From Halorussus caseinilyticus (lineage in GTDB: Archaea > Halobacteriota > Halobacteria > Halobacteriales > Haladaptataceae), in contig NZ_CP119809.1 in the NCBI RefSeq assembly GCF_029338395.1, positions 620,001 through 684,000 of the forward strand: a stretch of DNA of 64,000 nucleotides. The letters are read 5' to 3'. Below, one piece after another: positions 4,945-49,662 of this stretch (positions within the stretch are counted from its first letter, which is position 1; each line of letters opens with the position of its first letter). The notes below the pieces were generated by a model. It saw nothing but the letters and a program-made list of their open reading frames with translations. It was not told the DNA's origin and did not search any database. Both the position numbers and the translations under genes were made by a program.

Positions 4945-5151
4945 TTACTCTGATTCTGGGTCGCTCTCCAGCTCATACAGGCCCTTGTGGACGCGCTCGA
5001 CGTATCCGAGTTCCATGAAACGCTGGAGACGGTTGCGGACGTGCTGGCGGCTGTAGTCGTGTTCCTCGGCGATGTAGGCGGGCGTACATCGGCCCTCTCG
5101 CAACATCTCAAGGATAGCCCGGTCAGTCGGGCTAAGGTCTATCTCGGGCAT
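4945..5151 (-). CDS. Small winged-helix DNA-binding protein
   Basis: A 68-residue winged helix-turn-helix protein of the kind common in haloarchaeal proviruses and integrated elements. Helix 1 is in LSPTDRAILEMLRE, the HTH is roughly residues 24-45 (PAYIAEEHDYSRQHVRNRLQ) and the wing follows (MELGYVERVHKGLYEL). No other domain is present. It is divergent from the SWIM-domain gene. The 199 bases between them contain two related palindromes, so the protein probably binds there and represses itself and its neighbour (inference). A degraded copy of its 3' end lies at 4139-4195. The HEPN gene lies 130 bases downstream on the same strand. Confidence 0.85.
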   Translation of the reverse strand: MPEIDLSPTDRAILEMLREGRCTPAYIAEEHDYSRQHVRNRLQRFMELGYVERVHKGLYELESDPESE

Positions 5152-5183
5152 ACTGGTTGTTGTCTCCTTGCCTACTTATACTT

Positions 5184-5244
5184 TTGAACGTATGCATATG
5201 AAGCAAACCCTACGTAATAGTTGGTTCGTATGCATACAAACCAA
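5184..5244. promoter_or_regulatory. Twin palindromic operators in the divergent promoter
   Basis: Site 2 (5221-5244) is a 24-base palindrome with a single mismatched pair: arms TTGGTTCGTATG and CATACAAACCAA. Site 1 (about 5184-5206) shares the central TATGCATA (5191-5198) and the outer TT/AA. The two centres are 38 bases apart. TATA-like sequences flank them on both sides: CTTATACTTT at 5177 for the leftward winged-helix gene and AGGTATAAGA near 5246 for the rightward SWIM gene. This is the expected layout for a dimeric regulator controlling both divergent genes. Confidence 0.75.
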
Positions 5245-5350
5245 AGGTATAAGACAACGCCACTCTTACTCGGAAGTAGGAAGCGCGGTATTGCCTCGCA
5301 GAAAGGCCGGTGCTGGAACACCGACCGTGCTTCTGATGGAAGCCAGAAGC

Positions 5351-5854
5351 ATGACAACAAAGGAAACCAGCGGTAAAAAGAGTGCTGTTCGGGAACTAAC
5401 CTTCGGCGCAAAGACGGCCAAGCGTGTCGCGTGGGAGTCGTGGGAGTTCACCGTTGTCGGCCCGCACCTCGTGAAGGTCACGAACGCCAGCTACGGCTAC
5501 CTGAAGGAGGACCACGCCTACACGGTCGGTGTCGAGGAGCGCGACGGGCGTGGTGTTCCCGCCGAGTGCGACTGTCCCGCCGACGTTCACCACGAATCCG
5601 ACTGCAAGCACAAGGTCGCGGTCGCCACTATCGGCGGGAAGGTCCTGCTCGATGCGGCGGTCAACTTCTCGGCCCCCTCGGAAGGCGGGCGCGTTCCCGC
5701 CGAATCAGTCACCGTTGCCGACAAGCTCCGCGCCGATGGTGGTTCCTCGGTCGTGGCCGAAGCGTGTCCGAACGGGCAAGTCCGGTGTGGCGGTCCCGAA
5801 GACGACGAACTCCCGTGCTTCGCGTGCTACTCGGGGAACCGGAGTGAGGCGTGA
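5351..5854 (+). CDS. SWIM zinc-finger domain protein
   Basis: A 167-residue protein with a SWIM motif, C73-x-C75 then C85-x-H87 (segments CDCPADV and DCKHK), which binds zinc and usually mediates DNA or protein contacts. A second cysteine group near the C-terminus (C139, C146, C156, C159) may form another zinc site. SWIM proteins of this size are frequent in haloarchaeal plasmids and proviruses. The ATG at 5351 was chosen because the conserved part follows it. An in-frame ATG at 5336 is possible; further upstream reading runs through the promoter. GC-rich, unlike its AT-rich neighbours. It overlaps or abuts the next small gene, suggesting translational coupling. Confidence 0.85.
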   Translation: MTTKETSGKKSAVRELTFGAKTAKRVAWESWEFTVVGPHLVKVTNASYGYLKEDHAYTVGVEERDGRGVPAECDCPADVHHESDCKHKVAVATIGGKVLLDAAVNFSAPSEGGRVPAESVTVADKLRADGGSSVVAEACPNGQVRCGGPEDDELPCFACYSGNRSEA

Positions 5855-5859
5855 GTTCG

Positions 5860-6003
5860 ATGAACGGCTTGCTCCTGCTGTTCGAGGGCGTTTCGACGGA
5901 CGACGTTACCGAGGAATTCCTCGGTGACTTGATGGACGTGGCAGAGGACAACGACCTACTGCTTACGGGTATCTCGGTTTGGGGCGATGAATTAGAAGAA
6001 TAG
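5860..6003 (+). CDS. Small acidic protein of unknown function
   Basis: A 47-residue reading frame (50 residues if the GTG at 5851 is used, which overlaps the stop of the SWIM gene). The protein starts MNGLLLLFEGVSTDDV and is acidic, ending in DELEE. The tight junction with the SWIM gene suggests an operon and possibly translational coupling. Codon composition is haloarchaeal. No family recognised. Confidence 0.6.
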   Translation: MNGLLLLFEGVSTDDVTEEFLGDLMDVAEDNDLLLTGISVWGDELEE

Positions 6004-6062
6004 AGTTTTGAAAACGGATTGAATCTCTTCTCGGACCTTGCCGTTTAGAATCAACTCGATGT

Positions 6063-6392
6063 TCAAAGCTCGTCGTGTTCTTTTACAAGGTCGAAACGAA
6101 TATCCTCCACGCCACGCCCTTGCTTACGGGCCTCTGCCGTTTGCACAGTCTGTTTGGCAATTTCGGAGACGGTAGTATCGTAGTTGTTCTCCAGCATAAG
6201 CAGATACACGGACAGCAAATTGATGTGGGTATCCAAACCGTCGTTAGCTATAGTTCCGTTTTGTCCTGTAGCGTAGAGTTCACCGCTCTCACCTACATTT
6301 GAATCCCAATGCATGAATCCAAAGACGCTACCCGGAACAGTATCCTCAAGCCGGTCAATGATTTCCTGCTGTTTATCTGTATTTGAGGACAT
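6063..6392 (-). CDS. Hypothetical protein, 109 residues
   Basis: No family recognised. The protein is acidic and soluble with no membrane segment or signal peptide. It has an N-terminal helix (DKQQEIIDRLEDTV), a middle segment with Trp (FGFMHWDSNVG) and a helical second half (HINLLSVYLLMLENNY, TVSEIAKQTVQTAEARK). The gene is moderately AT-rich like its neighbours. It ends near the SWIM operon end (convergent) and starts divergently from the membrane-protein gene at 6485, with which it shares a roughly 90-base promoter region containing ATTTATAAAAAAG. This position next to the membrane/cyclase pair makes it a candidate third component, but nothing in its sequence shows what it does. Confidence 0.65.
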   Translation of the reverse strand: MSSNTDKQQEIIDRLEDTVPGSVFGFMHWDSNVGESGELYATGQNGTIANDGLDTHINLLSVYLLMLENNYDTTVSEIAKQTVQTAEARKQGRGVEDIRFDLVKEHDEL

Positions 6393-6484
6393 GATTTCAG
6401 TCTATCACCTCAACCACTTAGTGCTGTGGATTTATAAAAAAGATATATTCCCGAACCTTTTCGAGAAGGAGTGTTATCTACAGA

Positions 6485-6931
6485 GTGATGATACAAGGAG
6501 TCATAGACTGGCTATTTCTTAATGTCCGAAAAGCAGTAGCAATTGTCCTCATAACGTTCTTAGTAGCAATTATAGTCGCTCAATACTATGACACCGGAAA
6601 AAAGTATGCACGTATTGGAGAGGATTTCCGTGGAAAAGCGGCAGTCGCGGTAGCCCTGATAATAATCGCTCTCGGAAGTTCTTTTACTACTGCAATTCTC
6701 CAACCTCACCTTATCCGCATATTCCGTGATATTCGGATGCTGGTTTCTGCGCTCGGTCTTATCTGCTTTGCTGGTCTTTATCTTGCAAATCAAGAAGTGG
6801 ACGAATGGAATGTAAACGATGGAAGTCGGTTTATGCTCGCTTTGGCCCTTCTGGGGTTGGTACTCACATTCGGCCCGTGGGTATACGAGTCGATTTTACA
6901 ATGGATGATGGCCCAAATTCCTTTCATTTAA
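6485..6931 (+). CDS. Four-helix membrane protein, possible effector
   Basis: A 148-residue protein with four hydrophobic segments, about residues 17-36, 48-70, 83-101 and 115-135. Short charged loops separate them, and there is no separate soluble domain. Its start could be the GTG at 6485 or the ATG at 6488. A TATA-like ATTTATAAAA lies about 50 bases upstream. It converges on the cyclase-like gene with only 20 bases between their stops. A small membrane protein paired with a nucleotide cyclase resembles the membrane-effector arrangement of Pycsar defence, but the recognised effectors carry a cyclic-nucleotide-binding domain that I do not see here. Function otherwise unknown. Confidence 0.72.
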   Translation: MMIQGVIDWLFLNVRKAVAIVLITFLVAIIVAQYYDTGKKYARIGEDFRGKAAVAVALIIIALGSSFTTAILQPHLIRIFRDIRMLVSALGLICFAGLYLANQEVDEWNVNDGSRFMLALALLGLVLTFGPWVYESILQWMMAQIPFI

Positions 6932-6951
6932 TTCCTTTCCAAGCGTACTGT

Positions 6952-7671
6952 TTACTCCAATAGGTATTGTTCTGCCATCTCACGATGCTCCTCTATATCC
7001 TCCTTACTATACTCCAAGAAATATGAATTGGATTCACACCACTCGTAATACTCTTCGAGCGTCTGGTAGAGGAGACTACTAATATCGTCATCAACGTAAC
7101 GGAACCACTCGTGCCAGACTCGTTCAATTGGCTCATCACCATCAGGAGCGAATGCGCGCGCAGATTTATCAATAAAAATTCCAAATGGTGGTGCCTTAGT
7201 CTCGTTTTCAACAGCCTGAATCATGGGTAATCCCAAAAGAAGAGATTCTACGTAATCGGAATCAGCTACAAAATCCTGATTCACATCTTCTGAAATATTT
7301 TCTCCGTGTAAGATGGGTCCGTAGGAAAGAGACGCTCGGGGGATGTATGTGTATTCCGCACTCCGGTTCTCAATGTTGTCTTTAGCAAGTTTGCCGAAAA
7401 CATCTGAAAGAAGCTCAAGCATACTCATTTTATCGTCAGATGTCAGATATACGCCGTCCATGATGGGATAATGGGTCACAGCATCTCGGTCTATAGCATC
7501 ATCAACTGCAACATGGAGGTTAAGAATATCAATTGCAGATGTTTCGAGCGACCTTGACATTGTTCCTCGGACACCCATCAAATCCAACCAACAGACGTAC
7601 TCCTTCGTAATACCGTCCAACTGGTTAGAATCGGTATAGACGTGAGGAACATTAATCTCTTCCACCATCAC
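6952..7671 (-). CDS. Class III nucleotide-cyclase-like protein
   Basis: A 239-residue soluble protein whose motif order follows class III adenylate/guanylate cyclases. CWLDLMGVRG (residues 27-36) matches the first-strand metal Asp (D30). YPIMDGVYLTS (68-78) matches the second metal Asp hairpin (D72). RASLSYGPILHGE (112-124) matches the strand usually reading RxGxxxGxVxxG, and LLLGLPMIQAVENETKA followed by FGIFID matches the later helix and strand. Both metal-binding Asp positions are present; base-selecting residues cannot be assigned confidently. Pycsar cyclases are stand-alone proteins of similar size that make cCMP or cUMP on phage infection. Identification is by motif only and could instead be an inactive homologue. 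It sits 44 bases downstream of the integrase gene. Confidence 0.58.
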   Translation of the reverse strand: MMVEEINVPHVYTDSNQLDGITKEYVCWLDLMGVRGTMSRSLETSAIDILNLHVAVDDAIDRDAVTHYPIMDGVYLTSDDKMSMLELLSDVFGKLAKDNIENRSAEYTYIPRASLSYGPILHGENISEDVNQDFVADSDYVESLLLGLPMIQAVENETKAPPFGIFIDKSARAFAPDGDEPIERVWHEWFRYVDDDISSLLYQTLEEYYEWCESNSYFLEYSKEDIEEHREMAEQYLLE

Positions 7672-7715
7672 TATTACAGAGAGGAAGAAGTCAAATTAAT
7701 GTTTGGATGGAGATG

Positions 7716-8723
7716 CTATATATCCCGTAGATAGTCCCGCCGTCGCTCCGCTTTCTCGTCATGTGAACCCTTATCGTAGTGCTTGTCCAGAATCTTCCCG
7801 CTCATGTTCACCCTGTCGCCGGTTACGTCCTTGGGTTGCCCCGCATTCCGAGCCGCCGTCACGTAGCCCCGCCGGAGGGCATGGGGACTGACCGAACCGG
7901 GGCACTTGGAAGCGTGGCCCCATTGGGTCGCTTCGCAGGTGTCGGGGTCCCGGTCGAACGGGCACTTCCCGCCGTTGTAGAAGCACGGAGAGGTAGCGAG
8001 ATAGACGTGCTTGGTGATGGTCGTCCGACTGGTCCGACCGTGCTTGGTGGCAACCAGCGGCTTCCTGCCGTGCTTGTCCTCCACGTCGGGCCGCTGGTCG
8101 TTGATGAAGTCCGTGACGACCTCGGCGGCCTCGGGGGTGATGATTACGTCCCGCTCGCTGTGGTCCTTCCGCTTGAGAGGCGTGCCGCTCTCGGGGCGGT
8201 GTCGGAGTTCCACCGCCGGGCGTCCTTCGTCAAAGTCTCCGAGGTCGAGTGCCCGAAGGCCGCCAATTCGCATACCACACTTCCAGAGCAGAAGGAGAAT
8301 AATATGCCGAAGACTGGCGTAGTCGTACTTCCCGAGGCGGTCGAGGATGGCCGTGGCCTCTTCTCGGGTCAGCACGTCGTCGCAAATCTCGTCGTCCTCG
8401 TTGACTTTAGTGACGTTGACGAGTTCGTGAAGTCCGACCGGGACGGCTTGGATGGTTTCGCAGAACTGGATGAAGTTCTTGACTGTCCGCATATCGTTTC
8501 GGCAGGTAATGGGTTTCACGTCGTCCAGTCTCCATTCCTCGAACCGGGCTATCACGTCGCTGTCTACGTCCCGCATATCGGTGATGTTGCGCTCTTCGAG
8601 GTATTCGAGGAACCGGGTGAGGGCGGTGTCGTAGTTGTAGAGCGTCTTCTTGCTGACGTGGGCTTCTTTCCGTTTGAGGTATCTGTTCACGGCGTCTTCC
8701 GGTGGGGTTTGTTTGGTTCGCAT
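7716..8723 (-). CDS. Tyrosine recombinase (integrase)
   Basis: Catalyses site-specific integration and excision at the tRNA-Thr attachment site. The 335-residue protein has an N-terminal SAM-like core-binding domain (about 5-105) and a C-terminal catalytic domain. Visible catalytic residues are R152 (in GMRIGGLRALD), a lysine in TPLKRKDHSE, H281 and R284 (PHALRRGYVT), and Y316 (DKHYDKG). A four-cysteine cluster (C247, C254, C263, C274) between the lysine and the HxxR box is typical of haloarchaeal integrases and may bind zinc. The gene runs leftward from just inside attR, so its promoter lies between 8724 and 8807, next to a bulged hairpin at about 8781-8802. Confidence 0.93.
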   Translation of the reverse strand: MRTKQTPPEDAVNRYLKRKEAHVSKKTLYNYDTALTRFLEYLEERNITDMRDVDSDVIARFEEWRLDDVKPITCRNDMRTVKNFIQFCETIQAVPVGLHELVNVTKVNEDDEICDDVLTREEATAILDRLGKYDYASLRHIILLLLWKCGMRIGGLRALDLGDFDEGRPAVELRHRPESGTPLKRKDHSERDVIITPEAAEVVTDFINDQRPDVEDKHGRKPLVATKHGRTSRTTITKHVYLATSPCFYNGGKCPFDRDPDTCEATQWGHASKCPGSVSPHALRRGYVTAARNAGQPKDVTGDRVNMSGKILDKHYDKGSHDEKAERRRDYLRDI

Positions 8724-8780
8724 GGTTGTCTTGTACGACGCCCACCTGCTACGGCCTCCGCGTACTGACGCGGTAACGAC

Positions 8781-8802
8781 GACAGGGTTCAGCGAACCTG
8801 TC
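8781..8802. promoter_or_regulatory. Bulged hairpin between integrase and attR
   Basis: GACAGG, a single bulged G, TTC, loop AGC, then GAA and CCTGTC form a near-perfect stem. It lies in the integrase promoter region and immediately inside the attachment core, a place where recombinase accessory or repressor sites are expected. Role is inferred from position. Confidence 0.4.
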
Positions 8803-8807
8803 GGAGT

Positions 8808-8835
8808 GCCGAGGGTTCAAATCCCTCCACCGGCT
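8808..8835 (+). repeat. Right attachment site (attR)
   Basis: Exact 28-base copy of the tRNA-Thr 3' end at 3015-3042. Only the T arm and acceptor 3' strand are present, so it is not a second tRNA gene. It marks the right end of the integrated element. Confidence 0.93.
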
Positions 8836-9023
8836 CTTTCTGGCGAACATAACGAACGGCCAACTACTGCTGAGTGAAATTTGATTAAGGCGAATTGAAG
8901 TTCGTATAGACGAACTACTTTGAGTCTATAATATATCACACCATAAGACTTTTGAGTACGGCTATACTTCCTATATGTATAAGGGATAAAACAAATTGAC
9001 GTTTATTGTTGGTCACTAAATCT

Positions 9024-43755: not shown

Positions 43756-44088
43756 GTGAAAAAGAAAACAGCAATCAATATATCAATTGGCGCTATTTCA
43801 TCATTATTATTGGTTGATTTTCCGGGAGGTGCTTTAATAGGGGGTAGTCTCGCTGGCTATCTGCAGAGGGGAAGTAGAAAAAAGAATATAATAGTTGGTC
43901 TTTTAACTGGTTTGGTGGCCATACTATTGCTGTGGATAATTACAATCAGTAATGAACTTCTCCAAGGAGAAATTAGATATTGGTGGGCACTGGTACAACC
44001 ATTGATTACGGCGTCTTTGTATGCAATCGTTATTTCACCTCTTGGCGGTGCCATTGGTGGATACGTGCGGGAGGAAACCTCCGAATAG
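43756..44088 (+). CDS. Small membrane protein (DUF5518-like)
   Basis: A 110-residue protein with a GTG start, three hydrophobic segments (about 6-25, 45-65 and 80-103) and Gly-rich motifs (GGALIGGSLAGYL, SPLGGAIGGYV) typical of the haloarchaeal DUF5518 membrane family. The gene is strongly AT-rich compared with its left-hand neighbours and starts an AT-rich island that extends to about 45.05 kb. Confidence 0.72.
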   Translation: MKKKTAINISIGAISSLLLVDFPGGALIGGSLAGYLQRGSRKKNIIVGLLTGLVAILLLWIITISNELLQGEIRYWWALVQPLITASLYAIVISPLGGAIGGYVREETSE

Positions 44089-44179: not shown

Positions 44180-44959
44180 GTGTCTAGTGAAAAAGACATA
44201 TTTGGAAGACGAAAAGCTCTCAAAATAGCAGGTTCTGGACTTTCTCTGGCTACTGTCGGGTCAGCTAGCGCCAACGCTTCTTCAGGACGAGAACTGAGCG
44301 ACATTCTCGAAAAAGCACGGCGTATTCGAGAGAGAACGGGAAGTCAAGAACAGTTCATTGCGTATCTTGAAAACCACGGTGTTTCAATTAATACGTCAAA
44401 AAACGAGTTTAAGAAGCCAGCTCGACCTTCCGACGGTACATCCGAAAATGTCACCACGCAGAAAGTAGAAGACGCAGACATGACCGGCTACTTGACAGTC
44501 GGTGGGAATCTCACCGAGACGTTCGCAGATTATAAAGTAGAAATAAAAGACGGATACGGAACTGGTGAAGATAATCACGACGTAATTGGTATTTCTTGGG
44601 TACCTGATGATTACGACTTACAGGAGAACGGTACTCGAACACAAGACGCCACCAACGCGTATCTCAAGGATTCCAGCTTCGATGGTGCGCTATGGGGATT
44701 CGACGATTTCAACGCGTGCGGGTGGGGATGTGACCTCTCCTTCTCGGTAGCCACCGACATGGACAAAACGACAACAGAGACACCGAGAAAGATAGAAGCT
44801 ACTTATCAAACGGTGTGGAACGAATCAACTAGTGTTGTCGGATTCTCCGTTGATTCCAGTGGTTCCATGTCTCTCAGTGTCTCAGGCGGTGGCGGGCAAA
44901 CATACGTCGAGCAAATAGACAGACAGGTAGTTAAAGAAAGCCAGTCAACCGAACTATAG
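44180..44959 (+). CDS. Tat-exported protein of unknown function
   Basis: A 259-residue protein with a GTG start and a twin-arginine signal (GRRKALKIAGSGLSLATVG) ending near residue 33. The mature part is AT-rich in coding, with a helical region (45-75) and a beta-rich core (about 105-255). Cys179 and Cys183 lie close together (NACGWGCD) and may form a disulfide. Ser/Gly-rich strands occur near the C-terminus (SVDSSGSMSLSVSGGGG). No family recognised. A secreted antimicrobial, adhesin or immunity target is conceivable, but nothing shows it. Neighbouring AT-rich DUF5518-type gene suggests joint acquisition. Confidence 0.7.
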   Translation: MSSEKDIFGRRKALKIAGSGLSLATVGSASANASSGRELSDILEKARRIRERTGSQEQFIAYLENHGVSINTSKNEFKKPARPSDGTSENVTTQKVEDADMTGYLTVGGNLTETFADYKVEIKDGYGTGEDNHDVIGISWVPDDYDLQENGTRTQDATNAYLKDSSFDGALWGFDDFNACGWGCDLSFSVATDMDKTTTETPRKIEATYQTVWNESTSVVGFSVDSSGSMSLSVSGGGGQTYVEQIDRQVVKESQSTEL

Positions 44960-45105: not shown

Positions 45106-45735
45106 ATGACCGACGAGGAAGTCACCGAGCAGGTGCGGGAGGACGCCGAGGAGCAAGCAGAAGATGCCGAGGCCGAAACCGAGACCGAGGACCACCTCGG
45201 ACCGACCAGCACGAAACTCGTCGCGGAGGTGGCCACGCAGGACGCCAACCTCGCCACCGAACTCGAAGGCCACCTCGCGCAACTCGAAGCCGACAGAGAA
45301 GAGGCCCGAGAGCGCGCCGACGAACTCGAATCCAAACTCAAGCGCAAGCAGGCCGACTTCCAGAACTACAAGAAGCGCGCCAAGAAGCGCCAAGAGCAGA
45401 TGAAAGACCGGGCCACCGAGGACCTCGTGGAGAACCTGCTGGACGTGCGCGACAACCTCGTGCGCGCCGTCGAGGACGACCACGAGAACGTCGAGAGCCT
45501 CAAAGAGGGCGTCGAGATGACCCTGAAGGAACTAGACCGGGTGTTCGAAGGCGAGAACGTCGAGGCGATAGACCCCGACCCCGGCACCGAGACCGACCCG
45601 CAACGCCACGAGGTGATGATGCAGGTCGAGAGCGACCAACCGGAAGGGACGGTCGCGGATGTCTATCAGCCGGGCTACGAGATGGGCGAGAAGGTCCTGC
45701 GGGCCGCGCAGGTGACGGTCAGCGACGGCGAGTAG
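45106..45735 (+). CDS. grpE: Nucleotide exchange factor GrpE
   Basis: DnaK nucleotide exchange factor. The 209-residue protein has an acidic N-terminal tail, a long coiled-coil (about 60-120, with KLKRKQADFQNYKKRAKKRQ) and a C-terminal beta domain containing PDPGTETDPQRHEVM and VYQPGYEMGEKVLRAAQV, which are the usual GrpE signatures. Followed by dnaK at 46025 and dnaJ at 48493 in the same direction, giving the standard archaeal Hsp70 cluster. Confidence 0.95.
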   Translation: MTDEEVTEQVREDAEEQAEDAEAETETEDHLGPTSTKLVAEVATQDANLATELEGHLAQLEADREEARERADELESKLKRKQADFQNYKKRAKKRQEQMKDRATEDLVENLLDVRDNLVRAVEDDHENVESLKEGVEMTLKELDRVFEGENVEAIDPDPGTETDPQRHEVMMQVESDQPEGTVADVYQPGYEMGEKVLRAAQVTVSDGE

Positions 45736-46024: not shown

Positions 46025-47941
46025 ATGGCGAGCAACAAGATTCTGGGCATCGACCTCGGCACCACGAACAGCGCGTTCGCGGTCATGGAGGGCGGCGACC
46101 CGGAGATAATCGTCAACAGCGAGGGCGAGCGAACCACGCCCTCGGTCGTCGCCTTCGACGACGGCGAGCGTCTCGTCGGGAAACCCGCCAAGAATCAGGC
46201 GGTCCAGAACCCCGAGCGTACGATTCAGTCCATCAAGCGTCACATGGGCGAGGAGGATTACACGGTCGAAATCGACGGCGAGGAGTACACGCCCGAGCAG
46301 ATTTCGGCGATGACCCTCCAGAAAATCAAGCGCGACGCCGAGGAGTACCTCGGCGACGACGTGGAGAAGGCGGTCATCACGGTCCCCGCCTACTTCAACG
46401 ACAAACAGCGCCAAGCGACCAAGGACGCCGGTGAAATCGCCGGGTTCGAGGTCGAGCGCATTGTCAACGAACCCACTGCGGCGTCGATGGCGTACGGGCT
46501 TGACGACGAGTCCGACCAGACCGTCCTCGTCTACGACCTCGGCGGGGGCACCTTCGACGTGTCCATCCTCGACCTCGGCGGCGGCGTCTACGAAGTCGTC
46601 GCCACGAACGGTGACAACGACCTCGGGGGCGACGACTGGGACGAGGCCATCATCGACTACCTCGCCGACGAGTTCGAGAACGACCACAACATCGACCTCC
46701 GCGAGGACCGTCAGGCCCTCCAGCGCCTGAAGGACGCCGCGGAAGAGGCCAAAATCGAACTCTCCTCCCGGAAAGAGGCCGACATCAACCTCCCGTTCAT
46801 CACCGCGACCGACGAGGGGCCGGTCCACCTCGAAGACAGCATCACTCGCGCGAAGTTCGAGAGCCTGACCTCGGACCTCATCGAGCGCACGGTCGGCCCG
46901 ACCGAGCAGGCCCTCGAAGACGCGGGCTACTCGAAGTCGGACATCGACGAGGTGATTCTGGTCGGCGGTTCGACCCGGATGCCCCAAGTCCAAGAGAAGG
47001 TCGAGGAGATGACCGGCCAAGAACCGAAGAAGAACGTCAACCCCGACGAGGCCGTCGCGCTCGGCGCGGCGATTCAGGGCGGCGTCCTCTCGGGCGACGT
47101 GGACGACATCGTGTTGCTCGACGTGACTCCCCTCTCGCTCGGTATCGAGGTCAAGGGCGGTCTCTTCGAGCGACTCATCGACAAGAACACCACGATTCCG
47201 ACCGAGGAGTCGAAGGTGTTCACCACCGCCGCGGACAACCAGACTTCGGTGCAGGTCCGCGTGTTCCAAGGCGAGCGCGAAATCGCCGAGGAGAACGAAC
47301 TGCTCGGCGAGTTCCAACTGACGGGCATCCCGCCCGCACCGGCCGGAACACCCCAAATCGAAGTCGGGTTCAACATCGACGAGAACGGCATCGTCAACGT
47401 CACCGCCGAGGACCAAGGGTCGGGTAATCAGGAAGAGATTACCATTGAGGGCGGCGCTGGTCTTTCGGACGACGAAATCGAGCAGATGCAGGAAGAGGCC
47501 GAGAAGCACCAAGAAGAAGACCAGAAGCGCCGCGAGCGCATCGAGGCCCGCAACGAGGCCGAGAGCGCCATCCAGCGCGCCGAGACCCTCCTCGAAGAGA
47601 ACGAGGAGAACGTGGACGACGACCTGAAGGACGACATCGAGTCCGAAATCGAGAGCGTCCGCGAGGTGCTGGCCGACGAGGACGCCACGAAGGAGGACCT
47701 CGAAGACGCCACCGAGAGCCTGAGCGACGAACTGCAGGAAATCGGCAAGCAGATGTACCAGCAACAGGCCCAAGCCGGTGCTGGCGGCGCTGGCGCTGGA
47801 CCCGGCGGCGCGGGTCCCGGCGGTGCGGCGGGTGCCGGACCCGGCGGCATGGGCGGACAGGCCGGACCGGGCGGTGCTGGCGGCGACGACGACGAGTACG
47901 TGGACGCAGACTTCGAAGACGTGGACGACGACGAGGAGTAA
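46025..47941 (+). CDS. dnaK: Molecular chaperone DnaK (Hsp70)
   Basis: ATP-dependent Hsp70 of 638 residues. The nucleotide-binding domain starts with [15 protein letters not shown] and has the family motifs [17 protein letters not shown] and [14 protein letters not shown]. The substrate-binding domain and helical lid follow, then a Gly/Ala/Pro-rich tail (about 580-620). The conserved motif of Hsp70s is present without truncation, and the acidic composition is normal for halophiles. The extensive open frame on the opposite strand is a shadow. Part of the grpE-dnaK-dnaJ cluster. Confidence 0.97.
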
Positions 47942-48089
47942 TCGCGTTCAGGTAGTCTACTATTTTTACCGTCGTGCGGCCGGATGTCGGATGTTCCACC
48001 CGCGGGTTCCGATTCGCTGGAATCGGATAGCGGCGTCGTACGTAATAACTCACAGCGACTCGGAAAATCTCCGAGCAGTTAGCGTCGAG

Positions 48090-48302
48090 CTATAATCTGG
48101 ACGCACTCACGGACGAGTAGCAATCCCAATAACACGGCGGAAGCGTACAGCCTTGCGTACCGGCATCAGACTGGACCGTGGAGGTATCCTGAGGTTCTAT
48201 GCAGTCATCTGTTCCGGCGTCAGCGGCCGACACCGAACCGGTTCCTGCGGTAACTAAACACACTGCAAGTACGAGCGTGATTGCGAGTCGTTTGACATTC
48301 AT
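48090..48302 (-). CDS. Small secreted Cys-rich peptide precursor
   Basis: A 70-residue protein with a clear Sec signal peptide (MNVKRLAITLVLAVCLVTAG, probable cleavage after VSAA). The mature part is about 43 residues with four cysteines: DDCIEPQD, then QGCTLPPCYWDCYSS. Two disulfides are likely. It sits on the opposite strand between dnaK and dnaJ, breaking an otherwise co-directional chaperone cluster. Short Cys-rich secreted peptides include halocin-type antimicrobials, but it resembles no halocin that I can name. It has its own start and likely its own promoter. Confidence 0.62.
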   Translation of the reverse strand: MNVKRLAITLVLAVCLVTAGTGSVSAADAGTDDCIEPQDTSTVQSDAGTQGCTLPPCYWDCYSSVSASRL

Positions 48303-48492
48303 TGTCTACCACGAACCAATAGTTTGCTGTCCTATATTATAAATTTTATCAAGGGATTGGAAGATAGATTTGCCGGTGCAGTCGGACGAGAGGGTCGGCA
48401 CAGAAACGCTACGCTCGTGAGATTGCTCGCTTCGCCGAGTCGGAGTAACCCGGTCCCTTCAAGTGGCAGAACCGATTACGAAGGCACAACGA

Positions 48493-49662
48493 ATGAGCGA
48501 GGACTTCTACGACGTACTCGGCGTGAGTAGGGACGCCGACGAGGACGAAATAAAATCGGCTTACCGCGACAAGGCGACCGAGTACCACCCCGACGTGAGC
48601 GACGACCCGAACGCCGAAGAGAAGTTCAAAAAGCTCCAGAAGGCCAAGGAAGTGCTGACCGACGACGAGAAGCGTCAAGCCTACGACCAGATGGGCCACG
48701 ACCGGTTCGAACAGGCCGAGAAGCGCGGCGGGTTCGACGGTGGCGCTGGCGCGGGCGGCGCGGGTCCCGGCGGCATGGGCGGCGGTCCGTTCGGCGGCGG
48801 CATGGGCGGACAGGGCGGCATGGGCGACATCTTCGAGCAGTTCTTCGGCGGCGGCGGTCGGAGTCGCCAGTCCAACCGGCCCCAGAAGGGCCAAGACCTC
48901 CGCACGCGCATGACCATCGACCTCGAAGACGCCTTCGAGGGCGTCGAAAAGCAGGTCAGCGTCCGGCGTCCGGAGCGATGCGACGACTGCGACGGCGAGG
49001 GCCACCCGCCGGGTACCGACTCCCACACTTGCGAGGAGTGCAACGGCCGCGGGCAGGTCACGCAGGTCCAGCAGACCCCGCTCGGTCGGGTCCAGCAGAC
49101 CCAGACCTGCCGTCGCTGTGGCGGCGAGGGCGAAATCTACGCCGAGACGTGTTCGACCTGCGGCGGCGACGGCACGGTCCGCCGCGAGGCCACCCTCTCG
49201 GTCGAAGTCCCGGCGGGCATCCAGTCGGGCCAGACCCTCCAGATGGACGGCGAGGGCGCGCCCGGACCCAACGGCGGGCCGAACGGCGACCTGCTCATCG
49301 AAGTCGAAGTCGAGGACCACCCCGACTTCGAACGCGAGGGCGACGACCTGCGGCGACAGGAACCCGTCTCGTTCCCGCAGGCGACGTTCGGCGATACGGT
49401 CGAGATTCCGACCCTCGACGGCACCGTCGAGATGGACGTGCCCGCGGGCACCCAGAGCGGCGAGACCTTCCGCCTGCAGGGGAAGGGCATGCCCCACCTC
49501 CGCGGGCGGGGACAGGGCGACCTCTACGTGACGGTGCAGGTCGTCACGCCCACGGACCTCAACGACGAGCAGAAGGAAGCCCTCCAGCAGTTCGCGGAGG
49601 CCGGTGGAGAGGAGATTAGCGTCGAGGAAGGCTTCTTCGAGAAGATTAAGAACTCCTTCTAA
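48493..49662 (+). CDS. dnaJ: Chaperone DnaJ (Hsp40)
   Basis: DnaK co-chaperone of 389 residues, starting at the ATG at 48493 (MSEDFYDVLG). The J-domain has HPD at 32-34 (YHPDVSDD), followed by a long Gly-rich region (about 75-125, GGGMGGQGG type repeats), four zinc-binding motifs (CDDCDGEG, CEECNGRG, CRRCGGEG, CSTCGGDG) and a C-terminal beta domain. Domain order is complete and matches type I DnaJ. A family-1 hairpin element starts just after its stop. Confidence 0.97.
   Translation: MSEDFYDVLGVSRDADEDEIKSAYRDKATEYHPDVSDDPNAEEKFKKLQKAKEVLTDDEKRQAYDQMGHDRFEQAEKRGGFDGGAGAGGAGPGGMGGGPFGGGMGGQGGMGDIFEQFFGGGGRSRQSNRPQKGQDLRTRMTIDLEDAFEGVEKQVSVRRPERCDDCDGEGHPPGTDSHTCEECNGRGQVTQVQQTPLGRVQQTQTCRRCGGEGEIYAETCSTCGGDGTVRREATLSVEVPAGIQSGQTLQMDGEGAPGPNGGPNGDLLIEVEVEDHPDFEREGDDLRRQEPVSFPQATFGDTVEIPTLDGTVEMDVPAGTQSGETFRLQGKGMPHLRGRGQGDLYVTVQVVTPTDLNDEQKEALQQFAEAGGEEISVEEGFFEKIKNSF

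Follow-up and report, generated by a model that had tools for sequence, protein, structure and literature searches.

A conserved gene for a small, putatively exported cysteine peptide between dnaK and dnaJ in Halorussus, and its possible role as an extracellular antagonist

In the window analysed here, which is a continuous stretch of 64,000 nucleotides from the genome of Halorussus caseinilyticus (G000), the chaperone genes dnaK and dnaJ are separated by a gap of 551 bp, and part of this gap is occupied by an open reading frame (ORF) of 70 codons that is antisense to both neighbours. The question raised by the locus is whether this ORF is a real gene and, if so, what a peptide encoded in such a place may do. 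Small archaeal exported peptides are easily missed by annotation, and few of them have known roles. The initial annotation had placed a 70-residue ORF in this position and orientation, and the same coordinates are obtained here; the encoded precursor is MNVKRLAITLVLAVCLVTAGTGSVSAADAGTDDCIEPQDTSTVQSDAGTQGCTLPPCYWDCYSSVSASRL. The features of the locus are as follows:

48090–48302, minus strand: peptide precursor gene of 70 aa (70 codons), ATG start, TAG stop, recognised by ORF reading, homologues and selection
48225–48302, minus strand: predicted Sec signal peptide, residues 1–26, cleavage after VSA, from anatomy and conservation
48093–48224, minus strand: predicted mature peptide, 44 aa, 4 Cys, net charge −6
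48303–48308, minus strand: TAGACA, abutting the ATG, kept in 7 of 8 copies (TAGACG in G004)
48339–48347, minus strand: TATA-like box AAAATTTAT, presumed function
47963–47967, plus strand: T-tract just 3′ of dnaK, a possible dnaK terminator, also present in G009 and G014
46025–47941, plus strand: dnaK (Hsp70), PF00012, flanking
48493–49662, plus strand: dnaJ, PF01556, PF00226 and PF00684, flanking, ATG at 48493
45106–45735: grpE, upstream of dnaK

No Pfam or NCBIfam family was matched by the precursor up to an E-value of 1. A structured RNA was also considered and rejected: no Rfam match was found in 47900–48520, and the folds at the gene end and at the dnaK end are ordinary (z of −0.67 and 0.78, respectively).

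Only the peptide ORF, among the 115 ATG ORFs of 40–110 aa in the window, passes a hydropathy-based filter for a signal plus four cysteines, whereas 40 Markov-1 versions of the window gave 8,351 ORFs, of which one passes the same filter. Since this filter was devised after the ORF had been seen, conservation is the stronger proof of a gene. The search for homologues proposed in the initial annotation yielded 8 copies in 7 of 18 Halorussus genomes (E 3.5e-43 to 2.7e-20; every other match had E > 0.1 and was dropped), and the other copies are 56–74% identical to that of the window. The frame of the peptide gene is the only one of the six that is open in all eight copies, and it has the lowest pN/pS (0.44); the other five frames range from 0.49 to 1.58, each with stops in at least three copies. 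Pooled over 28 pairs, the Nei-Gojobori dN/dS is 0.31 for the whole precursor, 0.22 for the signal and 0.29 for the mature part, and the changes by codon position (481/374/886) are most numerous at third positions. Judged from these comparisons, 48090–48302 on the minus strand is a real gene under purifying selection. The overlapping plus-strand ORF 48199–48342 was rejected as a gene, as stops interrupt its frame in 7 of 8 copies; its pN/pS of 0.49 belongs to a frame that has its third positions in common with the peptide gene frame. A disrupted frame in close relatives had been named beforehand as a ground for rejecting the gene, and no such disruption is seen in seven copies, but the copy of G003 has ATT in place of ATG, together with an altered TATA-like box (TTTGT) and no in-frame upstream start. 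This copy may be silenced and, in view of its altered start codon and box, the peptide gene therefore appears dispensable.

The precursor begins with a basic segment (MNVKR) followed by a hydrophobic core and a VSA cleavage site after residue 26. The basic n-region, the hydrophobic core and a small-x-small cleavage site are conserved in an alignment of nine sequences (supported by the hydropathy filter), and this anatomy gives good support for reading the segment as a Sec-type export signal. The signal is the most conserved part of the precursor and the mature part varies (pooled pN 0.110 versus 0.289). D28, T31 and C34 are found in all nine sequences, and C52 and C57 in all eight Halorussus copies. 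Each of these eight copies has four mature cysteines, at mature positions 8, 26–27, 31–32 and 35–36 in six copies and at 8, 25, 26 and 31 in G009b and G014. That is to say, the latter two lack one of the Cys positions but have gained an adjacent Cys-Cys, so that the total stays at four; the homologue in G035, described below, also has an even number (two). Such paired loss and gain at an even number is as expected for a disulfide-bonded extracellular peptide. A fifth cysteine, C15, lies inside the hydrophobic signal. The bacterial lipobox motif is [LVI][ASTVI][GAS]C, and a bacterial-type lipoprotein was rejected: C15 follows V or L in the middle of the core and is missing in G004 and G035. The net charge of the mature peptide is −5 to −8 among the copies, and this acidic composition would fit a haloarchaeal exported peptide, unlike a cationic membrane-lytic peptide. 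An AlphaFold2 model built from three sequences shows the signal as a helix and leaves the mature part without a confident fold (mean pLDDT 50.2, with values below 50 for residues 22–70), and a profile search of PDB sequences returned no match. Signal anatomy, cysteine number and selection together give good support to the earlier description of a small secreted cysteine-rich precursor, with secretion itself a prediction.

The carriers include H. aquaticus (G002) and H. halobius (G004). In all 7 Halorussus carriers, the peptide gene lies in the dnaK-dnaJ gap and faces opposite to both genes; in G004, a 506-aa ORF separates it from dnaK, and in G009 there are two copies in tandem. By eye, the DNA downstream of one G009 copy resembles that of G002, G003 and G016, and that of the other resembles G000 and G014, and therefore an ancestral pair of copies with later losses is plausible. 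In the 10 non-carrier genomes of the genus that have a dnaJ match, the gap is 63–189 bp, and in all 10 genomes of two sister genera of the family it is 45–211 bp and contains no such ORF (gaps of relatives were measured to the second codon of dnaJ). The remaining genome, G015 (62% complete), has no dnaJ match and is counted among the 11 of 18 without the peptide gene. These short gaps bear out the earlier remark that the place is normally empty. On a dnaJ tree, six carriers and two non-carriers group together, with weak support, and G004 stands apart, a pattern that would fit vertical descent followed by losses, or a measure of transfer into the same site.

A profile search across 392 genomes of the order added one convincing homologue outside the genus, in G035 of another family (E 4.9e-9). 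Taken separately, both its signal and its mature part are similar to the profile (0 and 1 of 5,000 shuffles, respectively, reach the score), and its locus is not dnaK-dnaJ; it adjoins trehalase and LanM genes. At this locus (L061), the homologue (8683–8862, minus strand) stands tail-to-tail with a LanM gene (5083–8118, plus strand) and a 50-aa Cys-rich candidate LanA (8260–8412, plus strand). No further copy was found in 59 genomes around G035. An enlarged profile added nothing credible from 391 genomes of the class, a sample that included only 3 of the 7 carriers, and rare homologues may have been missed by it. A contig search among named genomes returned no relative with a single protein as query and two with the alignment. 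The weak profile matches in G010, G018, G108, G184, G198 and G362 (all E 1.9e-4 or weaker, in frames of 184–688 aa) were rejected: those in G108, G184, G198 and G362 read out as other proteins sharing only a signal-like start, and for those in G010 and G018 the E-value and the length of the frame were the only grounds. Cargo of a mobile element was likewise rejected: plasmids and phages gave no match, and in viral contigs no match was confirmed. A literature search, which was not exhaustive and so leaves room for a record in print, found no named peptide between dnaK and dnaJ. On the genomes compared, this is a new, nearly genus-restricted family of small, putatively exported cysteine peptides at a fixed site.

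Whether this site ties the peptide to the chaperones can be considered from the DNA around the start codon. The TTTAT of AAAATTTAT begins 40–42 bases 5′ of the ATG in 7 of 8 copies, the remaining one being the TTTGT of G003, and the majority of bases between the TATA-like box and TAGACA differ among the copies; the spacing would suit a TATA box with a short leader. The upstream element of dnaJ itself, CCCTTSAAGT or a close variant, is kept in carriers and non-carriers (TTTTTAAAGT in G002 and G016). Since dnaJ keeps its own element, separate from the box of the peptide gene, separate transcription is argued for. The gene stands where it does through inheritance at a single fixed site, with losses, and its position gives no evidence of control by heat shock. 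The stress linkage once suggested from location has, as far as these sequences go, no positive support beyond position, because the two elements are separate and the outside homologue lies elsewhere.

Some other genes near the peptide gene or elsewhere in these genomes deserve description. The dnaK-dnaJ gap of G002 and G016 contains a further antisense gene, located between the peptide gene and dnaJ, for a Tat-type precursor with a Cys-rich tail. It belongs to a family of such precursors (L089, L090 and 17 further matches) found in 12 of 18 genus genomes. The members have about 200–330 aa, are related in their middle part and end in a C-terminal tail that is Cys-rich and hypervariable; four of them were scanned and had only weak or signal-only Pfam/NCBIfam matches. 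The family looks halocin-like in layout, and its member in the genome of the window lies outside the window (G000:C1:702727–703272, L100). Just upstream of grpE, 44180–44959 (plus strand) encodes a 259-aa protein with a Tat-like start (GRRKALK) and no Pfam/NCBIfam family; it has matches in 7 of 18 genus genomes, its own included, the two best others having 48% identity. A 110-aa membrane protein of the DUF5518 family is encoded at 43756–44088 (plus strand).

From the above, the product is tentatively taken to be a lineage-specific, Sec-exported, disulfide-bonded peptide that acts outside the cell as a narrow-spectrum antagonist, a reading to which a probability of about 0.4 is given. Narrow-spectrum antagonism is, at the same rough figure, the likeliest single role. 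The antimicrobial or signalling function suggested in the initial annotation may apply. The gene would be transcribed from its own TATA-like box as a single gene, and the precursor would be exported by Sec and cut after VSA. Two disulfide bonds would then fold the acidic peptide of about 44 residues outside the cell. With less certainty, the peptide would act on other cells in the manner of a narrow-spectrum microhalocin and without modification enzymes. The dnaK-dnaJ place would be an inherited address, with no shown functional tie to the chaperones. Antagonism is favoured because the gene is dispensable and patchy, because its export signal stays constant while the core attached to it varies, and because Cys-rich or lanthipeptide-type neighbours recur: in 3 of 8 carrier genomes (7 Halorussus and G035), another Cys-rich exported or lanthipeptide-type gene adjoins the peptide gene. 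Several features count against it. The neighbouring immunity gene that the initial annotation had suggested looking for is not in the gap; indeed, neither an immunity gene nor a transporter nor a modifying enzyme stands beside the peptide gene in the 551 bp, which hold no second ORF of note. The core is under purifying rather than positive selection (no sign of the latter on the mature part in this small set of copies, pooled dN/dS 0.29). The precursor is a bare 70 aa, whereas halocins C8 and S8 come from larger ones, the strong acidity does not suit a cationic membrane-lytic peptide, and the model has no confident fold for the mature part. The peptide gene is a clean and simple case, namely one short gene without helpers at a site that is empty in relatives; with named carrier species and a definite prediction of about 44 aa and two disulfides, direct testing is feasible.

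Other roles can be read from the same facts. A self-directed role in the envelope or outside it, such as metal or thiol binding, protection or a part in the S-layer, with expression that stress might raise along with that of the chaperone neighbours, would agree with the fixed place beside dnaK-dnaJ in all 7 Halorussus carriers, with purifying selection and with acidic composition. It is nevertheless rather unlikely: the gene is not needed, being absent from 11 of 18 genus genomes (one a 62% complete draft) and possibly silenced in G003, its promoter-like box is separate from that of dnaJ, and the homologue of G035 adjoins trehalase and LanM genes. A signalling peptide (pheromone) read by its own species seems more improbable still, for the gap holds no receptor or regulator gene, although a small exported peptide with a species-variable core, of which variant types coexist in tandem in G009, is what such a role calls for. 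To our knowledge, haloarchaeal peptide pheromones offer no fitting precedent. That the ORF is a chance or decaying frame without function is very hard to credit when all 8 copies are open, pN/pS is lowest in this very frame and both the promoter-like box and the signal are conserved; the patchy spread on the dnaJ tree and the ATT start and altered box of G003 are what speak for it.

It is equally improbable, though worth raising since the G035 homologue adjoins a LanM, that the gene encodes a LanA, the precursor of a class II lanthipeptide, which a LanM encoded far away would modify in trans. LanM-type LANC_like genes exist in 11 of the 18 genomes of the genus, among them 6 of the 7 carriers, and the cores contain Ser, Thr and Cys. 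However, the excess in carriers, 6 of 7 as against 5 of 11 in the rest of the genus, is weak (by hand, a one-sided Fisher test gives about 0.11), carrier G002 has no LANC_like match at all, and the LanM of G035 comes with a LanA candidate of its own. The genus has 21 LANC_like loci, and not one of the 8 Halorussus copies is close to any of them; none of the small ORFs beside these loci matches the family profile better than E 0.1. G014 has six LANC_like genes; that of the window's own genome (G000:C1:219507–220538, L074) lies outside the window, about 448 kb from the peptide gene. Moreover, LanM substrates do not usually carry a Sec signal as their leader. The leader motif Kx(Y/F)(D/E)xx(F/Y), given for haloarchaeal LanA in the available part of PMC10105419, is absent by inspection from all nine sequences. 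On motif, linkage and profile evidence the LanA reading was rejected, and that of an antagonist acting without modification is preferred.

Compared with known systems, haloarchaeal class II lanthipeptides (archalans and their relatives) are similar in being short peptides with Cys, Ser and Thr that, as far as the consulted sources go, are common in Halorussus; they differ in that the peptide gene has no adjoining LanM in any of the 7 Halorussus carriers, and its product has a Sec signal in place of the leader motif described for them. According to the accessible portion of PMC12144867, Halorussus holds 26 of 67 deduplicated archaeal LanMs, and archaeal lanthipeptides antagonise haloarchaea; on that account, peptide antagonism is a known habit around the genus. 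The Tat precursors of Halorussus are likewise exported and Cys-rich, with one in the dnaK-dnaJ gap in both G002 and G016, but they differ in their size (about 200–330 aa), Tat signal, long related middle and hypervariable tail, and an informal look noticed no sequence similarity to the 70-aa peptide. A more far-reaching idea, which is doubtful, is that the peptide represents an unnamed class of archaeal antagonistic peptides, which would be exported by Sec from a minimal precursor and stabilised by disulfides only, with neither a modifying enzyme nor a large proprotein; the dnaK-dnaJ gap would be its fixed home in Halorussus, in which an unchanging export signal is coupled to cores that undergo diversification, duplication and loss, and in which further Cys-rich exported precursors settle.

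The closest comparison is with the microhalocins C8 and S8. Both contain cysteines, as the present peptide does, and the precursor of halocin S8 is a larger proprotein. Peptide halocins of less than 10 kDa are known from haloarchaea, and C8 and S8 typically require proteolytic processing of a precursor, as stated in the available text of PMC12893001. The likeness would extend to being a secreted haloarchaeal peptide below 10 kDa, the 44-aa mature peptide here being predicted and its secretion presumed. The difference, within what that text describes, is that the microhalocins are cut from a precursor by proteolysis and the present gene encodes a bare signal plus peptide of 70 aa, so that release from a larger precursor is a halocin trait not found here. 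The peptide is not filed as a halocin, and it may work like one.
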